From: Planosporangium thailandense
GTDB lineage: Bacteria > Actinomycetota > Actinomycetes > Mycobacteriales > Micromonosporaceae
DNA length: 64,000 nt
Assembly: GCF_011947195.1 (NCBI RefSeq)
Contig: NZ_JAATVY010000006.1
Span: forward strand, 62,001-126,000
Direction of reading: 5' to 3'
The notes beneath the pieces are model-generated. The model did not search any database and was not told the DNA's origin. It saw only the letters and a program-made list of their open reading frames with translations. This document shows positions 11,044 through 55,466 of this stretch, piece by piece. Position numbers and translations under genes: made by a program. The first letter of the stretch is position 1. Each line of letters begins with the position of its first letter.

Positions 11044-11709
11044 TCAGCCCATCCAGCCGGGCCGCACCAGGCCGGCCTCGTACGCGTACACGACAAGCTG
11101 CGCGCGGTCGCGCGCCCCGAGCTTGCTCATCGCCCGACTCACGTGGGTCTTCGCGGTCGCGGGACTCACGACCAGCTTCGTCGCGATCTCGTCGTTGGAC
11201 AGTCCGGCGCCGACGAGCGTGAGTACCTCCCGCTCCCGCTCGGTCAGGGCATCGAGGGTGCGCGGCGGTGGTGGCGCGGCGGCGCGGGTGGCGAACTGTT
11301 CGATCAGGCGCCGGGTGACTCCGGGTGACAGCAGGGCGTCGCCTGCCGCCACCGCCCGTACTCCGCGCAGCAGGTCCGCCGGCTCGGTGTCTTTGACCAG
11401 GAACCCGCTGGCGCCTACGCGGAGCGCCTCGAACACGTACTCGTCGAGGTCGAACGTCGTCAGGATCACGACGCGGACTTCGGCGCAGCGCGGTTCGGCG
11501 ACGATGCGGCGCGTCGCTTCGAGCCCGTCCAGCAACGGCATCCTGATGTCCATCAGCACGACGTCCGGGACGGTCTCGGTGGCCAGGCGTACGGCCTCGG
11601 CGCCGTCGGGGGCCTCCCCCACCACGTCGATGTCGTCCTGGGCGTCCAGGAGGGCCCGGAACCCGGCCCGTACGAGCGCCTGATCGTCGGCGAGCAGCAC
11701 CCGGATCAC
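11044..11709 (-). CDS. LuxR-type (NarL/FixJ) response regulator
   Basis: A 221-residue two-domain regulator. The receiver domain has the acidic pair at residues 8–9, phospho-acceptor Asp54 (VVLMDIRMP) and a Lys in FLVKDTEP. The C-terminal LuxR helix-turn-helix contains LTEREREVLTLV and NDEIATKLVVSPATAKTHV. Its start overlaps the stop of the histidine kinase gene by 4 bp, so the pair forms a standard two-component system. Target genes cannot be deduced; the DUF1707 protein encoded divergently from the kinase is the nearest candidate. The 3' end is only 14 bp from the convergent mycosin gene, with no visible terminator. Confidence 0.95.
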   Translation of the reverse strand: MIRVLLADDQALVRAGFRALLDAQDDIDVVGEAPDGAEAVRLATETVPDVVLMDIRMPLLDGLEATRRIVAEPRCAEVRVVILTTFDLDEYVFEALRVGASGFLVKDTEPADLLRGVRAVAAGDALLSPGVTRRLIEQFATRAAAPPPPRTLDALTEREREVLTLVGAGLSNDEIATKLVVSPATAKTHVSRAMSKLGARDRAQLVVYAYEAGLVRPGWMG

Positions 11710-12971
11710 ACCGTACCTCCCAGCGGGAACCGTGCGTACACCTCGAAGCCACCACCGGGGCGCGGCCCGGCGCGGAACTCACCGCCGAGCGCCTCGACCC
11801 GTTGCCGCATCCCGACGATGCCGGTGCCGTCCTTGAACGCGGGCGCACGATCCAGCAGGATCGGGTCGCCGTCGTTGGTGACGGTGACGACGGCCGCGCC
11901 ATCACCGTACGAGAGCCGTACCGTCGCGGCAGCCCCGGCACCGGCGTGCCGACGTACGTTGGTCAGCGCCTCCTGGACGACCCGGTACGCGGCCCGGTCC
12001 ACCTCGGCCGGCAGCGCGGTCCCGGCGCCGTCGACCTCCAGGGTCACCGCCAGCCCGGCGGCGGTGACGTCCGAGATCAGGGTGCGCAGGCCGGCCGCCT
12101 GATTGGGGCCTCCCGCGCCCGACACGCCAGGCGCCGGCGACCTGGGCGCCGCCTCGTCCTCGGGGCGCAGCGCGCCGAGCACCGCCCGCACCTCGCGCAG
12201 CGCCTCGGCGCTCGCCTGTTTGATCGCGGTCAGCGCGGCGCGCGCCTGCTCGGGGCGCTCCTCCATCAGATGCAGCCCGACCCCGGCCTGCACGTTTATC
12301 AGCGACAGGTGGTGGCCGAGGACGTCGTGGAGTTCCCGGGCGATCCGCAGCCGCTCTTCGCTGGCCTGCCGGCGACGCTGCTCCGCGCGCGCCTGTTCCT
12401 GGTCGGCGAGGGCGCGCTGCCGTTCGATGCGCGCGCGTACCAACTCCTGGAGATGGGTGGTGCGGGCGCGCGCCGCCTCGCCGATGGCGAAGACGACGAG
12501 CAGCCAGGTGGCGACGGTGACGAGCCGGCCGGCGGACGGATGGGCGGCGGCCGGCCAGATCAGCCCGGCGAGCGCGTACGTGAGGAAGCCGGCCGCCACG
12601 ACCACCCAGGTGAGCAGTCGGTGGCCGGCGCGCAGCGCGCCGAGGACAGCGACGATCCCCGCGAGGAACGCGGGTCCCACGGGATACCCGAGCGTCCCGT
12701 AGAGCGCCGTCGCCGCCACCGCGACGATCAGCGCGAGCGGGCGCAGGCGCCGCCGCACCAGGAGGGCCACCGGGCCGGCGACGAGCAGGACGTAGGCGAA
12801 GGGCGGCAGGTCGGCGTCGTGCCGGTGGGCGGCACCGGTGCTGCCCAGCACCTGAACGAACGCCAGGGCCACCGGCAGCACGAACCCGCCGGGCCGCCCA
12901 CCAGGCCAGTGCCAGGGGCCACGCCCCCACGGGCCGCGGTGCGGCCAGTACGGCGGGTCCGGTGTCTCCAC
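11706..12971 (-). CDS. Sensor histidine kinase (HisKA_3, DesK/NarX type)
   Basis: A 421-residue membrane kinase. Several hydrophobic segments (about residues 28–165) form a membrane sensor without a large extracellular domain. The HisKA_3 dimerisation helix carries His215 in RIARELHDVLGHHLS. The ATPase domain has an N-box (VVQEALTNVRRHAG) and G-box (DGTGIVGMRQRV). It phosphorylates the overlapping LuxR-type regulator. The membrane-embedded sensor suggests detection of envelope or membrane-active stress, as in LiaS/DesK-like kinases; this is inference. The start faces the DUF1707 gene across a 235-bp divergent region. Confidence 0.94.
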   Translation of the reverse strand: METPDPPYWPHRGPWGRGPWHWPGGRPGGFVLPVALAFVQVLGSTGAAHRHDADLPPFAYVLLVAGPVALLVRRRLRPLALIVAVAATALYGTLGYPVGPAFLAGIVAVLGALRAGHRLLTWVVVAAGFLTYALAGLIWPAAAHPSAGRLVTVATWLLVVFAIGEAARARTTHLQELVRARIERQRALADQEQARAEQRRRQASEERLRIARELHDVLGHHLSLINVQAGVGLHLMEERPEQARAALTAIKQASAEALREVRAVLGALRPEDEAAPRSPAPGVSGAGGPNQAAGLRTLISDVTAAGLAVTLEVDGAGTALPAEVDRAAYRVVQEALTNVRRHAGAGAAATVRLSYGDGAAVVTVTNDGDPILLDRAPAFKDGTGIVGMRQRVEALGGEFRAGPRPGGGFEVYARFPLGGTV

Positions 12972-13206
12972 GTCAGGAACGGTAGATGGGACGCGCCCGG
13001 ACCGTCATCGGGTGGCCGGTGTGGCGCGCGGTACGACGCCGGGTGTAGCGGACCGGCGCGGCTACGCCGACCGGTGTAGTCCGGCCGTTGCCGGTTGCGG
13101 TGACGGCCGTACCCCGGGTGCCGTCTGCGGGCTGACGACGGTGGACGGTGCTGCGGCGCAGGCTGGGGCCGCATGGAAAACCGGCAAGCCCCGTCAGGAG
13201 GTACCG

Positions 13207-13800
13207 ATGTCCACTGATCCGCGCGGTCCGCACCGGGTACGCGCATCCGACGCCGAACGCGAGCGGTACGCGCAGATCGTGCGCGCGGCGATGAGCGAGG
13301 GGCGGCTCACGTTGGAGGAGGGCGAGGAGCGGCTGGCCCAGGTGTACGCGGCGAAGTACCGCGACGAACTGGACCCGCTGACCGCGGACCTGCCCGACGG
13401 CGGCCGGCAGGCGCTGTTCGACCCGGCGGCGGCCGCCGGCGCCTTCCGCCGCATGGTGACCCGGTACATCGGCGTCGCGGCGCTGATCTCCGGCGTCCTC
13501 GTCGCGCTGTGGGCGCTGTCGGGGGCGCACTTCTTCTGGCCGTTCCTGCCGCTGCTGTTCCTGTGGTTCGGGGTGCTGCGCCACCTGCGGTGGCGGCGCT
13601 GGCAGGCGTGGGCCGGGCCCGGCGGTTGGCACAGCTGGGGTGCGCCGGGCGACTGGGGCGCACCGGGACGCTGGGGCGCACCGGGCGGCTGGGGCGCACC
13701 GGGCGGCTGGGGCGCACCGGGCGGCTGGGGTGCGCCGGGCGGATGGGGTGCGCCGGGCAGATGGTCCCCTGGCGGGCCTCCGTGGGAGCGCCGATCCTGA
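13207..13800 (+). CDS. DUF1707 membrane protein with Gly/Trp repeat tail
   Basis: A 197-residue protein. The N-terminal DUF1707 domain (residues 1–65: RVRASDAERERYAQIVRAA, then RLTLEEGEERLAQVYAA) is an actinobacterial SHOCT-like helical module. Two membrane segments follow (about 80–120), then about seven copies of a GGWGAP hexapeptide. The frame is open from 13012, but a strong AGGAGGT (13196–13202) fixes ATG 13207. It is divergent from a two-component kinase, which often controls such envelope-stress proteins. The repeats suggest a flexible cytoplasmic tail. Confidence 0.85.
   Translation: MSTDPRGPHRVRASDAERERYAQIVRAAMSEGRLTLEEGEERLAQVYAAKYRDELDPLTADLPDGGRQALFDPAAAAGAFRRMVTRYIGVAALISGVLVALWALSGAHFFWPFLPLLFLWFGVLRHLRWRRWQAWAGPGGWHSWGAPGDWGAPGRWGAPGGWGAPGGWGAPGGWGAPGGWGAPGRWSPGGPPWERRS
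13635..13763 (+). repeat. 18-bp tandem repeat in DUF1707 gene
   Basis: About seven units of CTGGGGCGCACCGGGCGG with minor variants. In frame, they encode the GGWGAP hexapeptide repeats. An expandable array. Confidence 0.85.
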
Positions 13801-13816
13801 GCAAGATCCCGACGGC

Positions 13817-13865
13817 GTCTGCGTTACCGAGGTCTCATCGCCCGGGTGACCTCGGTAACGCAGAC
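13817..13865. terminator. Perfect 18-bp stem hairpin downstream of DUF1707 gene
   Basis: Arms 13817–13834 (GTCTGCGTTACCGAGGTC) and 13848–13865 are exact reverse complements, with a 13-base loop. It starts 17 bp after the stop of the DUF1707 gene and 130 bp before the next gene. A terminator is most likely; there is no T-tract. Confidence 0.7.
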
Positions 13866-13947
13866 CCGGCGTCGATCATGGCGGTCCTTGGAACACCCGA
13901 CAGAACGGTACGACACACCCATAGCCACATGTTCGCGATGATCGACT

Positions 13948-13984
13948 CTCCCCTGGGATACTTCGCCCACGTTTCCCAGGGGAG
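13948..13984 (+). promoter_or_regulatory. Hairpin that would mask the ribosome-binding site of the gene at 13996
   Basis: The arm CTCCCCTGGGA (13948–13958) pairs perfectly with TCCCAGGGGAG (13974–13984) across 15 bases. The right arm covers most of the Shine-Dalgarno GGGGAGG that precedes ATG 13996. In an mRNA that includes both arms the start would be occluded, so translation could be conditional. An imperfect outer match (GATC on both sides) extends the stem. Confidence 0.5.
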
Positions 13985-37008: not shown

Positions 37009-37347
37009 GTGCGGGTCTGCGTGCGGGTGGAGGACGACTCGGGCGACGACTCCCGGTCGCTACTCGCCTGGCTGCGGGAAGAGCCACGGGTACGGCGCTA
37101 CGGCGAGCCCGCCGTGGCCGACGGCGACGGCGACCCCGTACACATGGGCGGTGGCGTCGAGGTGCTCAACGTGGTCCTCGGCGCCGGACTGTCGGCCGCG
37201 CAGCTCGCACTGTCGATCATCATGTGGCGCGCGTCCCGGGGCCGCCCGGTGCGGGTGATCATCGAACATGACGACGGGCAGGTGCCGGTCGATACCGACG
37301 ACCCGGACGACGCCGAGACGATCGCGGCCAAAATCGAATCGAGCTGA
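37009..37347 (+). CDS. EACC1 (effector-associated constant component 1) protein
   Basis: A 112-residue protein with the EACC1 pattern: an N-terminal strand plus [11 protein letters not shown], a Gly-rich hydrophobic middle ([20 protein letters not shown]), then [16 protein letters not shown]1 is a small component encoded in multi-gene actinobacterial conflict systems, usually beside caspase, trypsin or other effectors and thought to link sensing to the effector. GTG 37009 follows GAGGTGA by about six bases. The caspase gene begins 2 bp after its stop, so the two are translated together. Confidence 0.82.
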
Positions 37348-37349
37348 CG

Positions 37350-38609
37350 TTGCCGCAACTGTCCGATCCGCACCGCTCTCGGGTCGTCCTCGTCGGCGTT
37401 GGCTCCTACACCCAGCTGCACCCACTGCCCACGGTCGCCAACAACCTCACCGGCATCAGCGAGATCCTGGCCGACGACCGGTTCTGGGGGCTGCCGCCGG
37501 CCCGCTACCAACTGGTGGCCGACCCCACGACGCCACAGGAGGTGGGGCGGGCGGTGCGCGCCGCGGCCGCCGGCACCGGCGTCGGCGGGCTGCTGCTGGT
37601 GTACTTCGCCGGCCACGGCGTCGTCGACGACCGCACCGGCGAGCTCCACCTCGCCGTGGGCCACACCGACCGGGCGGCGGTGTACGCCACCGCCGTACCG
37701 TACGAGTGGATCCGCCGCGCCGTCCTCGACAGCCCGGCCAGCAGGAGGATCGTCATCCTGGACTGCTGCTACGCCGGTCGGGCGATCAGCGGCATGCGCG
37801 ACGACCTGTCCGCCGTCGCCGACGAGGTCGAGATCGACCGTACCTGCGTCCTGGTCGCCACCTCCCCCAACCGCGCCGCCCTCGCCCCGCCCGACGAGAA
37901 GTACACCGCGTTCACCGGGACGCTGGTCACCGTGCTGCGCCGGGGCGTACCGGGCGGGCCCGACCCACTCGACGTGGCCACGGTGTACGACGCGGTGCTG
38001 CACGCCCACCGCCGGCAGGCCCGCCCACTGCCGGAACTGCGCGCCCGCAACGGCGGCGAGCGCGTGCCGCTGGTGCGCAACCGGGCCCGGACGGCCCACC
38101 GTGCGCCGCCCGCCCCACCGCCTGACCCGCCTGGACAGCTGTCGTACACCGGCTGCGTGGTGGTCGCCGGCACGTCGGTGACCGACGACGAGCTGCGGGG
38201 CGCCACCGTGGCGGTGCTCGCGCACAGCACGGGCGCCGGCGCCCTCGGTGTCCGGCTGGACCGCCGGACACCGCGCGCCGCGCGCGACGTCGTGACCAAT
38301 CCGCTGCCGCCGCCGCTGGACACCGCGCCGGTTTTCGACGGCGGCCCGGTACGCGACGTGGTCATCCTGCTCGCCGCGGCACGCCCGGACGCCGCCCGGC
38401 TCGCCGGGTTCCAGCCGGTGACCGGCGGTCTGGGCACGGTCACGGTACCCCTCGACCGGGCCACCGGGTCCGCGCTCGCGGCGGCCTGCCTGTTCGTCGG
38501 CTACCTGGGCTGGCGGCCGGGCCAACTCGAGGCCGAGCTGGCCGCCGGTGACCTGGTCGTGTCGGGCGAGCGGCTGGATGCCTGGTTCTGGTTGCAGCAC
38601 GGACGGTAG
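37350..38609 (+). CDS. Caspase-like protease fused to an AlgH/YqgE (UPF0301) domain
   Basis: A 419-residue fusion. Residues 10–225 form a peptidase C14 (caspase/p20) domain with catalytic His89 (LLVYFAGHGVVDD) and Cys140 (VILDCCYAGRA). A Pro-rich linker (about 240–258) leads to a C-terminal AlgH/YqgE domain (about 260–415): opening strand SYTGCVVVAG, VAVLAHSTGAGALGVRLDR, PVFDGGPVRD and the hallmark FVGYLGWRPGQLEAELAAG. Both domains look complete. The start is TTG 37350, two bases after the EACC1 stop. Caspases in EACC1 systems act as proteolytic effectors, possibly causing cell death; the AlgH part could sense or localise. The fusion is unusual. Confidence 0.88.
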   Translation: MPQLSDPHRSRVVLVGVGSYTQLHPLPTVANNLTGISEILADDRFWGLPPARYQLVADPTTPQEVGRAVRAAAAGTGVGGLLLVYFAGHGVVDDRTGELHLAVGHTDRAAVYATAVPYEWIRRAVLDSPASRRIVILDCCYAGRAISGMRDDLSAVADEVEIDRTCVLVATSPNRAALAPPDEKYTAFTGTLVTVLRRGVPGGPDPLDVATVYDAVLHAHRRQARPLPELRARNGGERVPLVRNRARTAHRAPPAPPPDPPGQLSYTGCVVVAGTSVTDDELRGATVAVLAHSTGAGALGVRLDRRTPRAARDVVTNPLPPPLDTAPVFDGGPVRDVVILLAAARPDAARLAGFQPVTGGLGTVTVPLDRATGSALAAACLFVGYLGWRPGQLEAELAAGDLVVSGERLDAWFWLQHGR

Positions 38610-38626
38610 TCGAGGAGGAGGGGTTC

Positions 38627-40762
38627 GTGGCCACCGAGGCCGGACTGGTCAATCGCCTGGCCACCGAGGTACGGCGAGGAAGACGGGTGTCGCTGGTGCT
38701 CGGCTCCGGCGTCACCGCGCCGGCCGTACCCGGCGTGGCCGCCATGGTGGACCTGGCCGACCGGTTCGTGGCCGAAGGCGTCGGCAACCCCGACCTCGCG
38801 TCCGCGCTGGCCGGCATCCGTGCCGCCCATCCCGACCGGCCGGTCGAGACCTACCTGGCCTACCGGCGCGCGTTCACCGAGTGGGTGTCGCCGATCGAGT
38901 TCGACATCGTGGTCCAGCAGGCGGTGCTGCAGGCCCAGGCGTCCCAGGGGGACGCGGCCGGCCGGTGGGAGCGCATCGGCTTCCAGCGCGGCGCCCAGCT
39001 CGAGGCGGACCTCGCCGACTGGCTGCTCCCTGACGGCGTGCGGGCGCTCGGCGCCCTGCTCGCCGCCCGGCCGGCCAGCTTCGGCCACCGGGCCCTCACG
39101 ACCAACTTCGACCCGTTGATCGAGATCGCGATCCGGCGCGCCGGCGGGCAGGCGCGGTCGGTGTCGTTACGGCGCGACGGCCCGGTGGACGTCCCGGCCA
39201 ACGGCGCGGCCGGCGTCGACGTCGTGCACCTGCACGGGTACTGGCGCGCCGTCGACGAATCCGACGACCGCTCGGTGCTGCACGATCCGGAGCAGCTACG
39301 GGCCAACCCGGCCACGCTCACCGGTGACCTTTCCGACCTGCTCGGCGACGGGACCATCTGCGTCGTCGGCTACAGCGGCTGGGACGACACGTTCACCGCG
39401 GCGCTCCACCAGCTGTCGGTCGTCGCGGACGTCGACGTGCTGTGGGCGGTACATGACGACGCCGCCCCACCACCGGTCACCGATTCCTCCCTGTCGGTGA
39501 CGTTCTACCGGGGCGTCGACAGCGACCGGCTCTTCACCGCGCTGGAGCGGGCGCTGCGGGTGGGACCGTCCACAGCGCACCCGTCCGGTCCTCCCCCGGC
39601 CGCGCCTCCTCCCGCGGCCGCGCCTCCTCCCGCGGCCGCGCCTCCTCCCGCGGCCACACCGCCGGTGCTCGGCCCGCCGGCGATCGAGGCACCGACGACC
39701 GGGGCGCCGCCCGGCGTCGGCAGCGGCCACCGGATCCGGCACAGCGGCCTCGAACGCCTGCTGGGCGCCCGGGCGTCAGCCGATGAGCTGCTGCGCCAGC
39801 TCGACCGCGAGTTCGGCTGGCGGCTCGAGGGCGGCAGCGCGGAGACCGCGCCGGCGGTGCTCTACTGGCCGGTCCAGCTGCGCCAGCCGACGCTCATCCA
39901 CGCCGTACAGGCGCTCGTGGCGGCGGCGCTGTCGGCGCGCGGGATGACCGTCCTGCTGTGCTTCGACGACCTGTCCGCCGACGTACACCCCGATGAGCTG
40001 CGCCGTGTGATGCGCGCCGACGTGCAGCGCTGGTTCCGCCTGGTGGAGGGGGCCCGGCCGCCGTTGGTGGAGTCGCTGGAGTCGTTCTGCGAACCGGGGC
40101 GTGTCGCCGAGCGGCTGCTCGACCCGGACCTGCTCGTACGCCCCACCCACCCGTGGGCGGTCGAACGCGACTACTACCGCCACAGCACCCTCTACGACCT
40201 GGCCCGGACCGTCAAGGCCATCCCGGACGCGGACGCCGACGACGCGGACGCGGTGTCGGTCAAGACCGGCCTGACCACCACCCGCTCGGAGCGCCTGTGG
40301 AGCCCGCTCGCGATCTGGGCGTACCTGCACTATCTCCTGCTCGAAAACCGGGTGGAGGCGGTCGTGACGCTCGGCGGCGACGACGAGGCGACGATGTGGC
40401 GGCTCTGGCACGAGGTCTTCGCCGACCCGGTACGCCATCTGTACAACCCGCGGATCGTCAACCTGCGCCAGGACGCCGGCATGCTGCGCTGCGCCAGCTT
40501 CCAGGAGCTCAAGGCGCACCTCGAGCGCAGCTGCGAGCTGCCGACCTGGCGGGCCGAAGGGCACTATCTGCACTGGATCGTGCAGAACGCGCTGCTGCTG
40601 TCGCAGTACCTGCGCAACCGGCCGGCGCTGTCGGTCGGCGGCCGTCCGCTGGACTCCTGGCCGGCGGTGGTGCGGGCCCTCGACGAACCGGCCGAGCGCC
40701 CGCGCGTCATCCAGGCGATCGCCCGGGAGGTCTCGGCGCTGTTCCTCGGCGAATCCGGCTGA
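38627..40762 (+). CDS. SIR2-domain effector with unrecognised C-terminal domain
   Basis: A 711-residue protein. The N-terminal half is a SIR2-like domain: SLVLGSGVT (residues 22–30), TTNFDPL with Asn160 and Asp162, catalytic-position His203 (VVHLHGYW) and VVGYSGWDD. SIR2 proteins in defence loci usually hydrolyse NAD+. A Pro/Ala repeat linker (about 323–345) separates a roughly 350-residue C-terminal domain that opens with VLYWPVQLRQPTLIHAVQAL and VLLCFDDLSADVHPDE; this looks faintly like a class I aminoacyl-tRNA-synthetase (HUP) fold, but I cannot assign it. GTG 38627 follows GGAGGAGGGG, 17 bp after the caspase stop. Third gene of the putative conflict operon. Confidence 0.82.
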   Translation: MATEAGLVNRLATEVRRGRRVSLVLGSGVTAPAVPGVAAMVDLADRFVAEGVGNPDLASALAGIRAAHPDRPVETYLAYRRAFTEWVSPIEFDIVVQQAVLQAQASQGDAAGRWERIGFQRGAQLEADLADWLLPDGVRALGALLAARPASFGHRALTTNFDPLIEIAIRRAGGQARSVSLRRDGPVDVPANGAAGVDVVHLHGYWRAVDESDDRSVLHDPEQLRANPATLTGDLSDLLGDGTICVVGYSGWDDTFTAALHQLSVVADVDVLWAVHDDAAPPPVTDSSLSVTFYRGVDSDRLFTALERALRVGPSTAHPSGPPPAAPPPAAAPPPAAAPPPAATPPVLGPPAIEAPTTGAPPGVGSGHRIRHSGLERLLGARASADELLRQLDREFGWRLEGGSAETAPAVLYWPVQLRQPTLIHAVQALVAAALSARGMTVLLCFDDLSADVHPDELRRVMRADVQRWFRLVEGARPPLVESLESFCEPGRVAERLLDPDLLVRPTHPWAVERDYYRHSTLYDLARTVKAIPDADADDADAVSVKTGLTTTRSERLWSPLAIWAYLHYLLLENRVEAVVTLGGDDEATMWRLWHEVFADPVRHLYNPRIVNLRQDAGMLRCASFQELKAHLERSCELPTWRAEGHYLHWIVQNALLLSQYLRNRPALSVGGRPLDSWPAVVRALDEPAERPRVIQAIAREVSALFLGESG
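39596..39658 (+). repeat. 18-bp in-frame repeat in the SIR2 linker
   Basis: Just over three copies of GCGCCTCCTCCCGCGGCC encode APPPAA repeats in the linker between the SIR2 and C-terminal domains. Confidence 0.85.
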
Positions 40763-40813
40763 CGGCCGGGACGGGGCCGGCTGACGCCCGGGACGGGGCC
40801 GGCTGACGCCCGA
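40755..40813 (+). repeat. 22-bp tandem repeat spanning the SIR2 gene stop
   Basis: CCGGCTGACGCCCGGGACGGGG at 40755–40776 (one variant base), 40777–40798 and a partial copy at 40799–40813. The first copy includes the TGA stop of the SIR2 gene. Confidence 0.88.
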
Positions 40814-40860
40814 CAATTCAGCCGGCCCTCGGGGCAGCATCCCGGGCGTACCGTCAATAC

Positions 40861-41268
40861 ATGGAACGTAACGCTGTGTATCGACCTGTGACGGTGCCGG
40901 ACAGTGGACTGACCGAGCCGGTCGGGCTGGAGGAGTGCGCCCTGGCGTACGGCCGCGACCTGCTCGCCTACCTGCTCGCGGCCGGCGTGGACGGGCCACT
41001 GACGCGGTGGCGGCTGGATCCGGACACCGTCGAGTACGGGTGGGACCGGCTCCGGGTCTGCCACCGGGTGCTCGAACTGCTCGCCGAGCCCCGGTTGGCG
41101 AGGGCCTGGCTGCGGCGGCCCAGTCCGCGGCTGTCCGGGCACACCCCGGCCTGGGCGGTGCGCACCGGTGATCCCGTCCTCCTCTCCGTCGTCGAGCGGG
41201 AAGCCGAACGGCTACGACCCGAGCAGACGGTCGAGGAAGTCGCGGTAGCGGTGCACCGCCGCCCGTAG
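40861..41268 (+). CDS. Small DUF2384-like (MbcA/ParS/Xre toxin-binding) protein
   Basis: A 135-residue protein. The C-terminal half (about residues 75–120, PRLARAWLRRPSPRL, HTPAWAVRTGDP) follows the consensus of the DUF2384 domain found in Xre/ParS/MbcA-type antitoxins, which bind their toxin through this region. The N-terminal half is helical and could be a degenerate helix-turn-helix. No RES or similar toxin gene is adjacent. It is 98 bp downstream of the SIR2 gene on the same strand and may be the fourth component of that system. The last 57 bp overlap the convergent membrane-protein gene. Confidence 0.6.
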   Translation: MERNAVYRPVTVPDSGLTEPVGLEECALAYGRDLLAYLLAAGVDGPLTRWRLDPDTVEYGWDRLRVCHRVLELLAEPRLARAWLRRPSPRLSGHTPAWAVRTGDPVLLSVVEREAERLRPEQTVEEVAVAVHRRP

Positions 41269-41787
41269 CTGCTCGGTGTCTCCCGGCCCGTGCCGCCAGG
41301 CGTCGAGGTCGCTTTTGAAGGCGTTGAGCGAGGTGGTGAGGGCCTCGACGGTCTCCTCCACGACGCGCTCGGCTTCGTTGGCGACCTCGTTCGGGTTGTC
41401 GATGAAGCGCAGTTGCAGGTCGCGCCATCGCTCCCGCACGGACTGGGCGTAACCGTCGCTCCACATCCCCAGCGGGGGCATCGGTGGCATGTCGCCGAAC
41501 GACTGTCCGCCGTAGGGGCGGACGTTGGGTGGCTCGCTGCCCAACCTGTTGCTGGTCAGATCGTCGGGCGGCCGCTGCGTGGTGACCGCGTGCAGCGGCG
41601 TGGTTCTCGGCGGTGCCGACATCTGCTGCGGTGGGAGCGGTTGCTCGGGCGGCGGCGGCGTGGGTGGAGTCGGCTCCGCGCCACCGGATGCTTTCGACCG
41701 GGCACCTCCACCGGGGCGGAGGAGGACCCACGCACCGGCGCCCAGCGCGATGAGCACGAGAATCCAGGTGACGTATGTCGATAACAA
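41212..41787 (-). CDS. Single-pass membrane protein, paralogous family member A
   Basis: A 191-residue protein: one membrane helix (residues 5–22), a Pro-rich linker (about 30–100) and a soluble helical domain (about 105–190) beginning RWRDLQLRFIDNPNEV and ending AAVHRYRDFLDRLLGS. The same domain is encoded at 54960 and 55478, so it is a three-member family in this window. The frame is open to 42072, but TTG 41787 preceded by GGGAGGAACGCC marks the start right before the helix. Function is unknown; the domain looks like a helical bundle. It overlaps the DUF2384-like gene by 57 bp at the 3' end. Confidence 0.78.
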   Translation of the reverse strand: MLSTYVTWILVLIALGAGAWVLLRPGGGARSKASGGAEPTPPTPPPPEQPLPPQQMSAPPRTTPLHAVTTQRPPDDLTSNRLGSEPPNVRPYGGQSFGDMPPMPPLGMWSDGYAQSVRERWRDLQLRFIDNPNEVANEAERVVEETVEALTTSLNAFKSDLDAWRHGPGDTEQLRAAVHRYRDFLDRLLGS

Positions 41788-42014
41788 GGCGTTCCTCCCT
41801 AACTGGAGGTATCCGCACGAATTACACCGCCAAAAACCGACCCCGAACCCCTCAAATGTAGCGCGGGGAGGGGTACCCCACAGTTCACGGCGACCCGGAT
41901 CGTCGGCCTGGCGTAGGCCGCTGACAGACCCGTTGAACGCCGGTGGGTCCGCTTCGTCGAGCCTACCGCCGACAGCGGCGCACCCGCCCGGATCACCGCC
42001 GCCCGAGGGGAGTC

Positions 42015-42620
42015 CTACCCCGCGGTCCCGAACGTCAGCGCCGTCGTCGTGCGGCCCTGCTCCCCCAGCCACCGCAGCGCCAGGTCGCGGTAGCTCAGCG
42101 GTTCAGCCGGGCCGATGGTCGCCCCGAGGGACCGCCTGACCTCGGCGATGTCGTCGCTTTCGCCCTCGAGCTCGACGAAGTGGCCGAGGCGGGGCAGCTC
42201 GTCGAGGCAGACCACGATGGACAGCCCGGGTCGGTGGTACTCGCGCCGCCGCTTCTGCAACCGCCAGACACACACCAGGCCCTGCTCGGCCAGCGCCGCG
42301 CGCACGTCCTCGGCGTCCGCGGCCGGCAGCTCCACCTCGATCCGGGCGTGCGAGCCGTCCGGCAGGAACGACCGCGGTCCCTTGAACCCGGCCGTCACCT
42401 GCCCGTCGACCACGCGCAGCCGCAGCACCAGGTTGGCCGCGCCGAGCAGCCCGACCGGCGTGTCGTAGTACTCGTCGGCCTGCAGCGACACCGGGTCGGC
42501 GCGGAACCCGAGCCGGTCGAGCACGGCGAGGACCGCAGCACCGTCCCGGATACGGTGCTTGCTCTCGGTCTCCAATGCCCCGGCCGCCACGCCCATCCCG
42601 CCGACTCTGGTCGACGCCAC
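42015..42620 (-). CDS. CYTH-domain protein (class IV adenylate cyclase-like)
   Basis: A 201-residue CYTH (CyaB/thiamine triphosphatase) fold. The diagnostic ExExK is Glu17-Thr-Glu19-Ser-Lys21, followed by strands with charged pore residues (YYDTPVGLL, LVLRLRVVDG, ARIEVELP, REYHRPGLSIVVCLDELP, FVELEGES). These enzymes bind triphosphates with divalent metal in a beta-tunnel; products may be cAMP or hydrolysed polyphosphates. GTG 42620 lies one base after the radical SAM stop, so they are coupled. ATG 42596 is a shorter alternative. The link to a radical SAM enzyme is unusual. Confidence 0.85.
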   Translation of the reverse strand: MASTRVGGMGVAAGALETESKHRIRDGAAVLAVLDRLGFRADPVSLQADEYYDTPVGLLGAANLVLRLRVVDGQVTAGFKGPRSFLPDGSHARIEVELPAADAEDVRAALAEQGLVCVWRLQKRRREYHRPGLSIVVCLDELPRLGHFVELEGESDDIAEVRRSLGATIGPAEPLSYRDLALRWLGEQGRTTTALTFGTAG

Positions 42621-42621
42621 C

Positions 42622-43842
42622 TCACCGCTCCGGCGGGAACGGCTGGATGCTCCCGTTGAGGTACCGACTCACGTGCTCTACCAGGTTGACATGGCGGCGG
42701 AAGGCCGCCACCACGTCTGTCCGGGAAGAGACAGGGCCGGCGATCCGCAGCTTGCCCCCGAACTCGCGCTCGACGTACAGGTCGCCGCGGCTGCCGATCA
42801 GCAGCACCGAGTTGGGCGCCCGGTGGGTGCCGGTGACCCTGATGTTGAGCGGGAGCCCCTCCCGCGCGGAACGCGCCACGAGCCGGGCGAGGGTGGGCAG
42901 CACGTACGGGCCTGGACGCAGGTCGCGGTTGCGGGGCAGGGCCGCCTTACCGGCCGGCACGACCACGTGCAGGACCCAGTTGCGCACGCCCAGCGCGATG
43001 AGGCCGTCGCGCATCCCGCACAGGGTGTCGAGATCCTCGTTGCCCGCGGTCACCACGGTCTGCACGGTCGTGGCCAGTCCCGCCGCGGCGGCCTCGGCCA
43101 GGGTGCGCCGGGCGCACGCGCCCGCGCTGCCGCCCGCCGGCAGGTACCGCCGGTTGATCGGCCGCAGCCGGTCGTTGCGGTTGGTGTCGAGACTGTCCAG
43201 CGAGACCCGTACGTGCACCCCGTACTCGCACAGCACCGGCAGCACGGCGTCCAGGTCACCCACCCCGGAGCTGTCCAGGACGACGGCCTTGCCCGAGCGC
43301 GCCAACTCCCGTACCAGCACCGCGGTGCGCGCCGGCCGGATCAACGGCTCGCCGCCGGTGACCACCGCGACGAGGGCCGGCACGCGCGCCGCCATCTGCG
43401 CCACCCGCCACGGCTCGTCGTCGCTCTCGGTGTCCCGGTACGCCTGCATCAGGTCGTCGGCGTGGCAGTACCGGCACCGGAGTGGACAGTGCGCGGTGGC
43501 GAAGCAGTTGACCACGAGCGGCTGACGCACGACCGGCGGCCCGTCGAAGGTACCGAGAAGCGACGTGCCGAAGTGCGGGCGCTGCGGCGTGGCCGGCTCC
43601 GTGGCGACGATGCCGAACTCCGCCAGCAGGCGCACGACGCCGGGCTCGGCGGCCGGGACCGGATCGCCGCGCGCGACCGCCGCCACGATGCGCGCCGGGG
43701 CACCGCCGAGAGCGAAGAAGTGATCGCGGTCGGGGACGTACGCGACGACGCCGAACGGCTCCTCACGGGTCACGACGCGGTGCGCCGGCGCCACGGTCGG
43801 CGCCGGCGGCGTCAGGCCAGCCGTGGCCGGCGGGCGCGACAC
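42622..43842 (-). CDS. Radical SAM protein with PqqD/RRE-like N-terminus
   Basis: A 406-residue protein. The N-terminal 85 residues (FGVVAYVPDRDHFFALGG, ARIVAAVARG) resemble a PqqD-like peptide-recognition element. The radical SAM core has Cys-x3-Cys-x2-Cys in HCPLRCRYCHAD, a GGE motif (VTGGEPLIRP) and SLDSLD. I do not see an obvious SPASM cysteine cluster; the C-terminus is short. It resembles peptide-modifying (RiPP) enzymes, but no precursor peptide was recognised nearby. GTG 43842 follows GGAGGGG; the open frame from 43857 begins inside that site. It is translationally coupled to the CYTH gene. Confidence 0.85.
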   Translation of the reverse strand: MSRPPATAGLTPPAPTVAPAHRVVTREEPFGVVAYVPDRDHFFALGGAPARIVAAVARGDPVPAAEPGVVRLLAEFGIVATEPATPQRPHFGTSLLGTFDGPPVVRQPLVVNCFATAHCPLRCRYCHADDLMQAYRDTESDDEPWRVAQMAARVPALVAVVTGGEPLIRPARTAVLVRELARSGKAVVLDSSGVGDLDAVLPVLCEYGVHVRVSLDSLDTNRNDRLRPINRRYLPAGGSAGACARRTLAEAAAAGLATTVQTVVTAGNEDLDTLCGMRDGLIALGVRNWVLHVVVPAGKAALPRNRDLRPGPYVLPTLARLVARSAREGLPLNIRVTGTHRAPNSVLLIGSRGDLYVEREFGGKLRIAGPVSSRTDVVAAFRRHVNLVEHVSRYLNGSIQPFPPER

Positions 43843-45826: not shown

Positions 45827-45910
45827 ATGAGCCGTTACCTCGCCCCGCTGGGCTTCACGCTCGCCACCCTCTGGGTCGCCGTCATCTTCGTGTTGCTGAG
45901 CGCCCGCTGA
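45827..45910 (+). CDS. Small single-pass membrane protein of 27 residues
   Basis: ATG 45827 follows GGAG by six bases and encodes MSRYLAPLGFTLATLWVAVI then FVLLSAR, essentially one membrane helix with a short basic start. Codon use is GC-rich like the rest. The stop is included in a 20-bp tandem repeat that continues into the spacer. It lies 119 bp before the DUF5996 gene. Function unknown; such tiny proteins often modulate larger membrane complexes. Confidence 0.5.
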   Translation: MSRYLAPLGFTLATLWVAVIFVLLSAR

Positions 45911-54959: not shown

Positions 54960-55466
54960 TCAGAGCTCCAGAACCCGGTCCAGGAACGCCCGGTACCGGC
55001 GGACCGCGACCCGCAACCGCTCGGTGTCGGCGTCGCCGGGCGCCCCGAGCTCGTCGCGCCGGGCGGCGACGATCGCCGCCAGTTGCTCGGTCGCTTCGGT
55101 GACGAGCGCCTCGGCGTCGCGTACGGCGGCGTTGGGATCGTCGACGAACCGTAGCTGCACCTGCCGCCACCTGCCCCGGAAGTCCTGCGCCGCGTCGTCC
55201 GACCACAGCCGCGCCGACCCGGCCGGCACGGCCGGCCGCTCAACAGGCGAGGTCGGCGCGGCCGGCGAGACCGGTGCGGCCGGCGAGACCGGTACGGCCG
55301 GCGAGGTCGGCGCGGCCGGCGAGGCTGGTGCGACCGGCACGACCGGTTCGGTGTCCTCGGCGTCGGCGGGGTCGCGCTCCCACCGGATCGACGCGTCGTC
55401 GTCTCCGGCGGTCCGCTGCGCGAGCGCCGTGTCAGCGCCAGCCGCGGGGTCAGACGTGCTCGACAT
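54960..55466 (-). CDS. Soluble member B of the paralogous helical family
   Basis: A 168-residue protein without a membrane segment. A Pro/Ala/Thr repeat (about 30–75) precedes the helical domain that begins RWRQVQLRFVDDPNAAV and ends VAVRRYRAFLDRVLEL, matching members at 41212 and 55478. The start is ATG 55466 with GAGGAG upstream; the longer frame to 55481 overlaps the previous gene. It is 11 bp downstream of member C, so the two are co-transcribed. Function unknown. Confidence 0.8.
   Translation of the reverse strand: MSSTSDPAAGADTALAQRTAGDDDASIRWERDPADAEDTEPVVPVAPASPAAPTSPAVPVSPAAPVSPAAPTSPVERPAVPAGSARLWSDDAAQDFRGRWRQVQLRFVDDPNAAVRDAEALVTEATEQLAAIVAARRDELGAPGDADTERLRVAVRRYRAFLDRVLEL

Follow-up and report, generated by a model that had tools for sequence, protein, structure and literature searches.

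A radical SAM–CYTH gene pair at the edge of an extended EACC1-caspase cassette in Planosporangium thailandense and other Micromonosporaceae

To which system does a radical SAM enzyme belong when its gene is paired with that of a CYTH protein? The question is raised by a 64,000-nt stretch of Planosporangium thailandense (assembly GCF_011947195.1, contig NZ_JAATVY010000006.1, positions 62,001 to 126,000; hereafter the window, with coordinates counted from its first letter), in which the initial annotation had described the two genes as a coupled pair and a possible new small pathway. We found that the pair is real and that it forms the edge of a larger conserved cassette. The constant neighbour of the radical SAM gene is a four-gene block on the opposite strand (37009-41268), absent from that annotation, which encodes an EACC1 protein (Effector Associated Constant Component 1), a caspase–AlgH fusion, a SIR2 fusion and an MbcA-like protein. 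In the most likely reading, the locus is a caspase/NADase cassette for cell death that is linked to the membrane and has the radical SAM enzyme as an accessory, a function predicted from what follows.

Both genes of the pair were present as minus-strand open reading frames (ORFs) as annotated, were called by a coding-bias model, and carry domains above the Pfam cut-offs (Radical_SAM 51.7 bits, cut-off 29.5; CYTH 61.4 bits, cut-off 23.2). Their closeness, given as a one-base gap, recurs in five other loci with both genes, where the CYTH match overlaps the radical SAM stop codon or starts 15 to 46 nt past it. The one-base figure itself depends on an upstream GTG that is one possible start among others, and the real CYTH start is probably elsewhere; GTG 42590 leaves 31 nt to the radical SAM gene and corresponds to the starts of L067 and L069, where the gap is 30 nt (L and G numbers are loci and genomes of this analysis). 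The pair is not limited to one strain, being present in four genomes of the same genus (this one included) and two of another genus. A stand-alone radical SAM–CYTH pathway was rejected, since CYTH is missing from 14 of the 20 loci where the radical SAM gene joins the cassette and the constant partner is the caspase/SIR2 cassette.

Distribution was determined in 300 Micromonosporaceae genomes, taken as the same set for three protein searches (radical SAM enzyme, E 1e-30; SIR2 protein with its C-terminal part as query, E 1e-8; CYTH protein, E 1e-12). The radical SAM enzyme was found in 21 genomes, the SIR2 protein in 40 and CYTH in 8, and all 21 and all 8 lie within the 40 (hypergeometric 1.3e-21 for the radical SAM enzyme, relatedness ignored); at its threshold, the search for the radical SAM enzyme found nothing in the other 260 genomes of the sample, which have no SIR2 protein. 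All 40 SIR2 loci were fetched and scanned with family hidden Markov models (HMMs); L034, L036 and L037 were left out of the locus scan as copies of L059, L066 and L065, and L031, L032, L033 and L035 are copies of L069, L068, L067 and L042, respectively. Caspase–AlgH was found in 38 loci, the MbcA-like protein in 37, EACC1 in 33, an RRE-type radical SAM enzyme in 20, a SPASM-type one in 3 and CYTH in 8; L042 and L069 are cut by contig ends, and genes missing there are not losses. The radical SAM gene adjoins the cassette in 20 of its 21 genomes, across six genera whose outer neighbours differ. The gene order is EACC1, caspase–AlgH, SIR2 fusion, MbcA-like and then, facing them on the other strand, CYTH (if present) and radical SAM; a divergent orientation was rejected, as the coordinates put the two parts facing each other. 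In 10 of the 11 CYTH-free loci measured, the ends of the MbcA-like and radical SAM genes overlap or abut (−35 to +10 nt), the exception being L040 with 665 nt; L058, L061 and L062 were excluded from these stop-to-stop distances.

Mapped on a SIR2 tree of 40 proteins, the RRE-type radical SAM gene is patchy, yet present on most deep branches. It needs 10 changes, 9 of them forced by well-supported branches, and 23 of 500 label shuffles gave as few. The simplest interpretation, though others are possible, is that the radical SAM gene was ancestral and was lost repeatedly. CYTH is limited to a single nine-row clade, where eight members carry it and the ninth, L110, has neither CYTH nor a radical SAM gene. 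It always occurs with one of the two radical SAM types (8/8): in G046 and G121, both of this clade, a SPASM-type enzyme takes the place of the RRE type and CYTH is retained. Among the 20 loci without the RRE type, three hold a SPASM enzyme, encoded on the cassette strand. A radical SAM–CYTH link of single origin thus has modest support. The features are listed in Table 1.

Table 1. Features of the extended cassette in the window.
Feature	Coordinates	Strand	Basis and remarks
EACC1 (Effector Associated Constant Component 1), one glycine-containing hydrophobic segment	37009..37347	+	Pfam PF19953
Caspase domain and AlgH/DUF179 fusion	37350..38609	+	NF047832, DUF179, Peptidase_C14
SIR2-like domain and tyrosyl-tRNA-synthetase-like C-terminal half	38627..40762	+	SIR2_2, coding model (favours start 38687), fold of C-terminal half
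TyrRS-like region within the SIR2 protein, lacking a KMSKS-like motif and an exact HIGH	39749..40759	+	Alignment, model, fold match, motif scan of 40 loci
MbcA/Xre antitoxin-like small protein	40861..41268	+	Profile relation, Xre_MbcA_ParS_C
CYTH/triphosphate-tunnel protein	42015..42620	-	Pfam CYTH, structure match, motif residues; start probably GTG 42590, alternatives ATG 42596, GTG 42620
Radical SAM enzyme, 406-411 aa	42622..43857, or start 43842	-	Pfam Radical_SAM, alignment, AlphaFold2 model, fold matches
CxxxCxxC motif of the radical SAM enzyme, residues 119-126	43465..43488	-	Sole invariant cysteines of 8-sequence alignment
Probable RRE/PqqD-like N-terminal domain of the radical SAM enzyme, model residues 16-82	43597..43797	-	Model secondary structure, weak MftB matches in relatives

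The core of the cassette is known. In the main text of Kaur et al. 2020 (PMC7159879), the actinobacterial two-gene EACC1-caspase conflict system is "System 4". Its EACC1 gene precedes a gene that encodes a caspase at the N-terminus and a variable domain at the C-terminus, and membrane sensing was proposed for the system. The window has an EACC1 gene (PF19953 82 bits, cut-off 23.6) directly upstream of an EACC1-type caspase (NCBIfam NF047832 caspase_w_EACC1 230 bits, cut-off 140; Peptidase_C14 41.3 bits, above cut-off), with AlgH/DUF179 (46 bits, cut-off 27) as the variable domain C-terminal to the caspase. The caspase His and Cys patterns are each kept in 36 of 38 proteins, and the hydrophobic segment of EACC1 has a best 19-residue hydropathy of 1.84, with glycines inside. 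Unlike System 4, the cassette adds the SIR2–TyrRS-like fusion, the MbcA-like protein and, optionally, the radical SAM and CYTH proteins. AlgH, SIR2 and CYTH are absent from the main text of PMC7159879, where radical SAM enzymes are described in VMAP and FtsH ternary systems; the follow-up, supplements apart, names no radical SAM, AlgH or CYTH and SIR2 once, in another system (PMC8195603). No published account of the extended gene set was found in titles and the beginnings of abstracts, the supplements of both papers being outside this scope, and an earlier notice is possible. PADLOC returned weak matches only, to SIR2 Argonaute-type, caspase and viperin models.

We tentatively assign the radical SAM and CYTH proteins, as accessory members, to an EACC1-caspase conflict cassette found in Micromonosporaceae, with the working proposed below, a reading to which we give somewhat less than an even chance.

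The SIR2 fusion holds a SIR2_2 domain (33.1 bits, cut-off 24.5) and the Asn motif TTN.D, found in 38 of 40 proteins (32 by pattern, 6 by reading). It has the domain and the motif of a SIR2 NADase and is predicted to have enzyme activity. No Pfam family was found for the C-terminal half of the window copy. An AlphaFold2 model of this half, made from eight sequences (m841b86edb821; mean pLDDT 71, two of five models above 60, poor stretch at 118-187), aligned over 276 residues with the class I catalytic fold of tyrosyl-tRNA synthetase (TyrRS) in the best VIA row (Z 16.9, root-mean-square deviation (rmsd) 5.0), and Foldseek gave E 1.6e-6 with TM 0.41-0.59, normalised by query. Fifty rows of Foldseek and 50 of VIA-align were TyrRS or engineered variants; many of these rows are of one enzyme, and they are therefore not 50 independent matches. 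HIGH and KMSKS are TyrRS motifs, and neither a KMSKS-like motif nor an exact HIGH was found in any of the 40 C-terminal halves. At the HIGH position, which was located by pattern rather than structure, 39 halves have HMVQ, HAVQ or a similar sequence; L124 has HGVH and thus both histidines. An active TyrRS was therefore rejected; unlike TyrRS, the half is also fused to SIR2. It is probably a degenerate TyrRS-like fold acting as a binding module, an assignment from the model that has no sequence-profile support. Searches outside chromosomes gave no phage match to the TyrRS-like half and no plasmid match to the TyrRS-like core of L131; the whole SIR2 protein matched 11 plasmid records, of which the 10 listed match the SIR2 part only, and none of 123 viral contig candidates was confirmed. 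No published link of SIR2, tyrosyl-tRNA synthetase and phage defense was found.

MbcA is the antitoxin of the NAD phosphorylase MbcT. The profile of the MbcA-like family matched MbcA Rv1990c (6fkg_C) with E 4.3e-5, and with an E limit of 1 Xre_MbcA_ParS_C matched 9 of 22 members, the strongest at 6.8e-9, the window copy with 22.9 bits lying slightly below the 24.5 cut-off. Unlike MbcA of the MbcA/MbcT pair, the window protein adjoins a SIR2 protein, and no RES-type toxin was found among the seven neighbours scanned with Pfam. No transporter was found among the seven neighbouring proteins scanned with family models, in agreement with the initial annotation.

The radical SAM enzyme itself allows more than one chemistry. 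CxxxCxxC is intact in all 24 matched radical SAM proteins, three of them SPASM type. In an 8-sequence alignment of the enzyme, C119, C123 and C126 are the only invariant cysteines and no SPASM/twitch auxiliary-cluster cysteine is conserved; membership of the SPASM maturases was thus rejected. Of the 25 NCBIfam families listed among 48 matched, none came close to its cut-off. The AlphaFold2 model (mean pLDDT 85) has strands 16-19, 24-28, 31-36 and 41-45, helices 47-58 and 67-75 and strand 79-82 at its N-terminus. It aligned with SuiB (Z 21.1, 326 residues aligned, residues 17-388) and SkfB (Z 20.6, 309 aligned, residues 23-386), with alignment starts between residues 16 and 23; the rows of viperin and MoaA start near 105. 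Rows of NifB, PFL-activase and LIAS also start at residues 21-42, with fewer residues aligned, and the sactipeptide maturase rows 5wgg and 5why start at 108 and 105; a family absent from the VIA lists was not treated as excluded. Among the N-terminal stretches of 10 of the 21 enzymes, picked by hand, nine matched MftB of mycofactocin weakly (E 2.9e-4 to 0.16, none reaching the 33-bit cut-off), mostly over 18 to 25 residues of the same N-terminal motif, and one matched actinodefensin-associated protein B (6.9e-5). MftB had no match in the stretch of the window's own enzyme, and the PqqD family had none in eight members. Given these contrary rows and the weak MftB matches, the RRE-like assignment of the N-terminus, put forward by the initial annotation as PqqD/RRE-like, is only probable; the SuiB/SkfB alignment and the matches in relatives speak for it.

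PqqE, MftC and SuiB install cross-links or other modifications on peptides. The enzyme could accordingly be a protein or peptide maturase, whose RRE-like domain would bind a cassette protein or an unlinked precursor to which the radical SAM core would add a cross-link or another modification. With SuiB and SkfB it shares a radical SAM core preceded by what is probably an RRE-like N-terminus, aligned from residues 17 and 23, and the MftB and actinodefensin-associated matches point the same way. Unlike these maturases, the window enzyme is devoid of SPASM/twitch cysteines, and no precursor peptide was found: the intergenic space of 36.8-45.4 kb holds no small ORF (ORFs overlapping genes by less than 35%), which agrees with the initial annotation. 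No cassette residue tracks the radical SAM gene either, and we consider a maturase rather doubtful. All 10 small intergenic ORFs within 36.8-47.1 kb lie at 45.47-45.91 kb. One of them, at 45827-45910 (+) between fabG and a DUF5996 gene, encodes 27 aa with one hydrophobic stretch; it has 89 to 96% identity in three other genomes of the genus, and in a pattern search no other fetched locus has it.

The radical SAM enzyme might instead act on a small molecule, in the manner of viperin, the antiviral radical SAM nucleotide dehydratase (SAND), on a nucleotide or amino-acid derivative whose phosphates CYTH or HAD hydrolases would process. The catalytic core resembles viperin most closely in fold (Z 22.5, rmsd 3.0, 270 aligned, 14% identity), all eight CYTH genes come with a radical SAM gene, a HAD hydrolase gene follows the SPASM radical SAM gene in L124 and L131, and a TyrRS-like fold would suit an adenylate-type ligand. 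Against this, the viperin model NF038283 scored 28.6 bits (cut-off 180), and MoaA and PqqE models scored higher, with 42.2 and 38.4 bits; the viperin fold match may therefore be generic to radical SAM enzymes without SPASM. Viperin membership was rejected on this score, and unlike viperin the enzyme carries an extra N-terminal domain. We consider a small-molecule or nucleotide enzyme unlikely.

The nearest solved structure for the CYTH protein is that of Saci_0718, a triphosphate tunnel enzyme (E 8.8e-10). The ExExK motif that the initial annotation had reported as intact is present in all eight CYTH proteins, together with FKGPR, KRRR, DE and ExEG. A class IV adenylate cyclase CyaB was rejected, TIGR00318 giving 47.2 bits for an equivalog cut-off of 57.95. 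No published account combining CYTH, radical SAM and gene cluster was found.

That the two genes landed beside the cassette by chance and were inherited along with it is quite unlikely: the radical SAM gene is patchy and CYTH confined to one clade, both face the cassette genes, and one radical SAM copy lies on another contig, but at E 1e-30 no sampled genome lacking the SIR2 protein has the radical SAM gene, the gene stays next to the cassette in six genera whose outer neighbours differ, and a second radical SAM type goes together with a homologous TyrRS-like half outside Micromonosporaceae.

We return to the radical SAM and CYTH proteins as accessory members of the cassette. Every step of the following working, a cell-death or antiphage role included, we infer from the genes, domains, neighbourhood and models above. 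EACC1 would sense membrane disturbance and activate the caspase–AlgH protein, which would then cleave itself or its partners. The effector would be the SIR2 protein as an NAD-consuming enzyme. The MbcA-like protein would silence it, and its own degenerate TyrRS-like half would tune it by binding a ligand, for instance tRNA or a compound of aminoacyl or nucleotide type. The radical SAM enzyme could be a licensing or signal-making enzyme for this half, either modifying a protein recognised via the RRE-like domain or making a small molecule for the TyrRS-like domain, and the CYTH protein may handle a triphosphate tied to the radical SAM chemistry.

Several observations weigh against this reading. 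In 17 of 40 cassette loci the fetched stretch has no radical SAM gene of either type, so that this gene is not essential; one six-row branch of the SIR2 tree is entirely without the RRE type, and the G169 copy (L063:9733-10878, +) is on another contig than its cassette, the sole non-adjacent copy of 21. The radical SAM gene faces the cassette on the opposite strand, and co-transcription is therefore not implied. No alignment column of the cassette proteins tracks the radical SAM gene, the best differing in four of seven sister contrasts, and a substrate residue kept after loss of the gene would escape this test; the SIR2 columns were compared without L124, whose SIR2 match is split in two. By eye, the EACC1 and MbcA-like tails of sister loci also showed no consistent difference with and without the gene. 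Of 21 radical SAM sequences, 6 lack the loop that surrounds the conserved E.FG in the RRE-like part, and L065 has a shortened version of this part. The cassettes of L066 and L126 lost the SIR2 Asn motif, the rest of the protein being kept. The profile of the C-terminal half had no match in PDB sequences, and with synthetases of related genomes hhalign gave probabilities of 0.4 for tryptophanyl-tRNA synthetase and 0.3 for TyrRS, with 2.1 for an unrelated radical SAM control.

The TyrRS-like half was also found outside the cassette. In a sample of the class, its profile identified one further genome beyond Micromonosporaceae among 394 (own included), and the radical SAM profile its own genome only, of 388; 4 or 5 candidates were scored per genome in these searches and distant copies may be missed. 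The further genome, G504, belongs to another family. An operon there encodes a protein in which this half follows a weak helix-turn-helix (HTH; 17.6 bits with the best Pfam HTH model, cut-off 22), a SPASM radical SAM enzyme whose start lies at about the end of that protein, and a HAD hydrolase scoring 59.5 bits (cut-off 26.4). L124, the cassette locus of G225, has a SIR2–TyrRS-like protein followed by a radical SAM enzyme of the G504 kind and a HAD hydrolase, and the SPASM enzymes of L124, L108 and L109 have 44 to 46% identity to the G504 copy. No further members were found in 11 more genomes of that family or in 117 other genomes of a phylum sample, and G504 is listed at 8% contamination, so that mis-binning is possible. 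A plasmid search with the radical SAM enzyme of the window gave no match; the SPASM enzyme of L124 gave 15 records, all below 60% identity, several named mycofactocin maturases.

We hypothesize that radical SAM enzymes of two types are tied to the degenerate TyrRS-like fold in more than one genomic context, which is the most surprising part of these results. Speculatively, and with low probability, the two could be a module joined to varied effectors (SIR2 with or without EACC1-caspase, or an HTH-like part), often with a phosphohydrolase (CYTH or HAD) along. The dead synthetase would read the radical SAM product, be it a modified amino acid, a nucleotide or a tRNA-derived compound, as a signal linking radical SAM chemistry to NAD-dependent cell death. 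If true, such chemistry and a dead synthetase in a cell-death cassette would be a new signalling mode in bacterial immunity. EACC1-caspase systems were proposed from sequence, and the extended form gives them concrete candidate partners: a putative effector that consumes NAD, a putative silencer resembling an antitoxin and, as a possible sensor, a degenerate synthetase. The conserved gene set makes the proposal testable in soil actinobacteria that are not pathogenic.

Other genes were observed beside the cassette. The window proteins at 41212-42072 (−) and 54960-55466 (−) are related, with a C-terminal region in common, and relatives of the former sit between the MbcA-like and CYTH genes in four genomes of the genus. 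In the cassette loci L113, L116, L119, L121 and L123, all of one genus, a gene with a CYTH-CHAD-like beginning lies near EACC1; Pfam confirms it in L113, and the proximity may be coincidence. In L109, a trypsin-NACHT protein of a kind typical of conflict systems (11433-13955, −) adjoins the CYTH gene.

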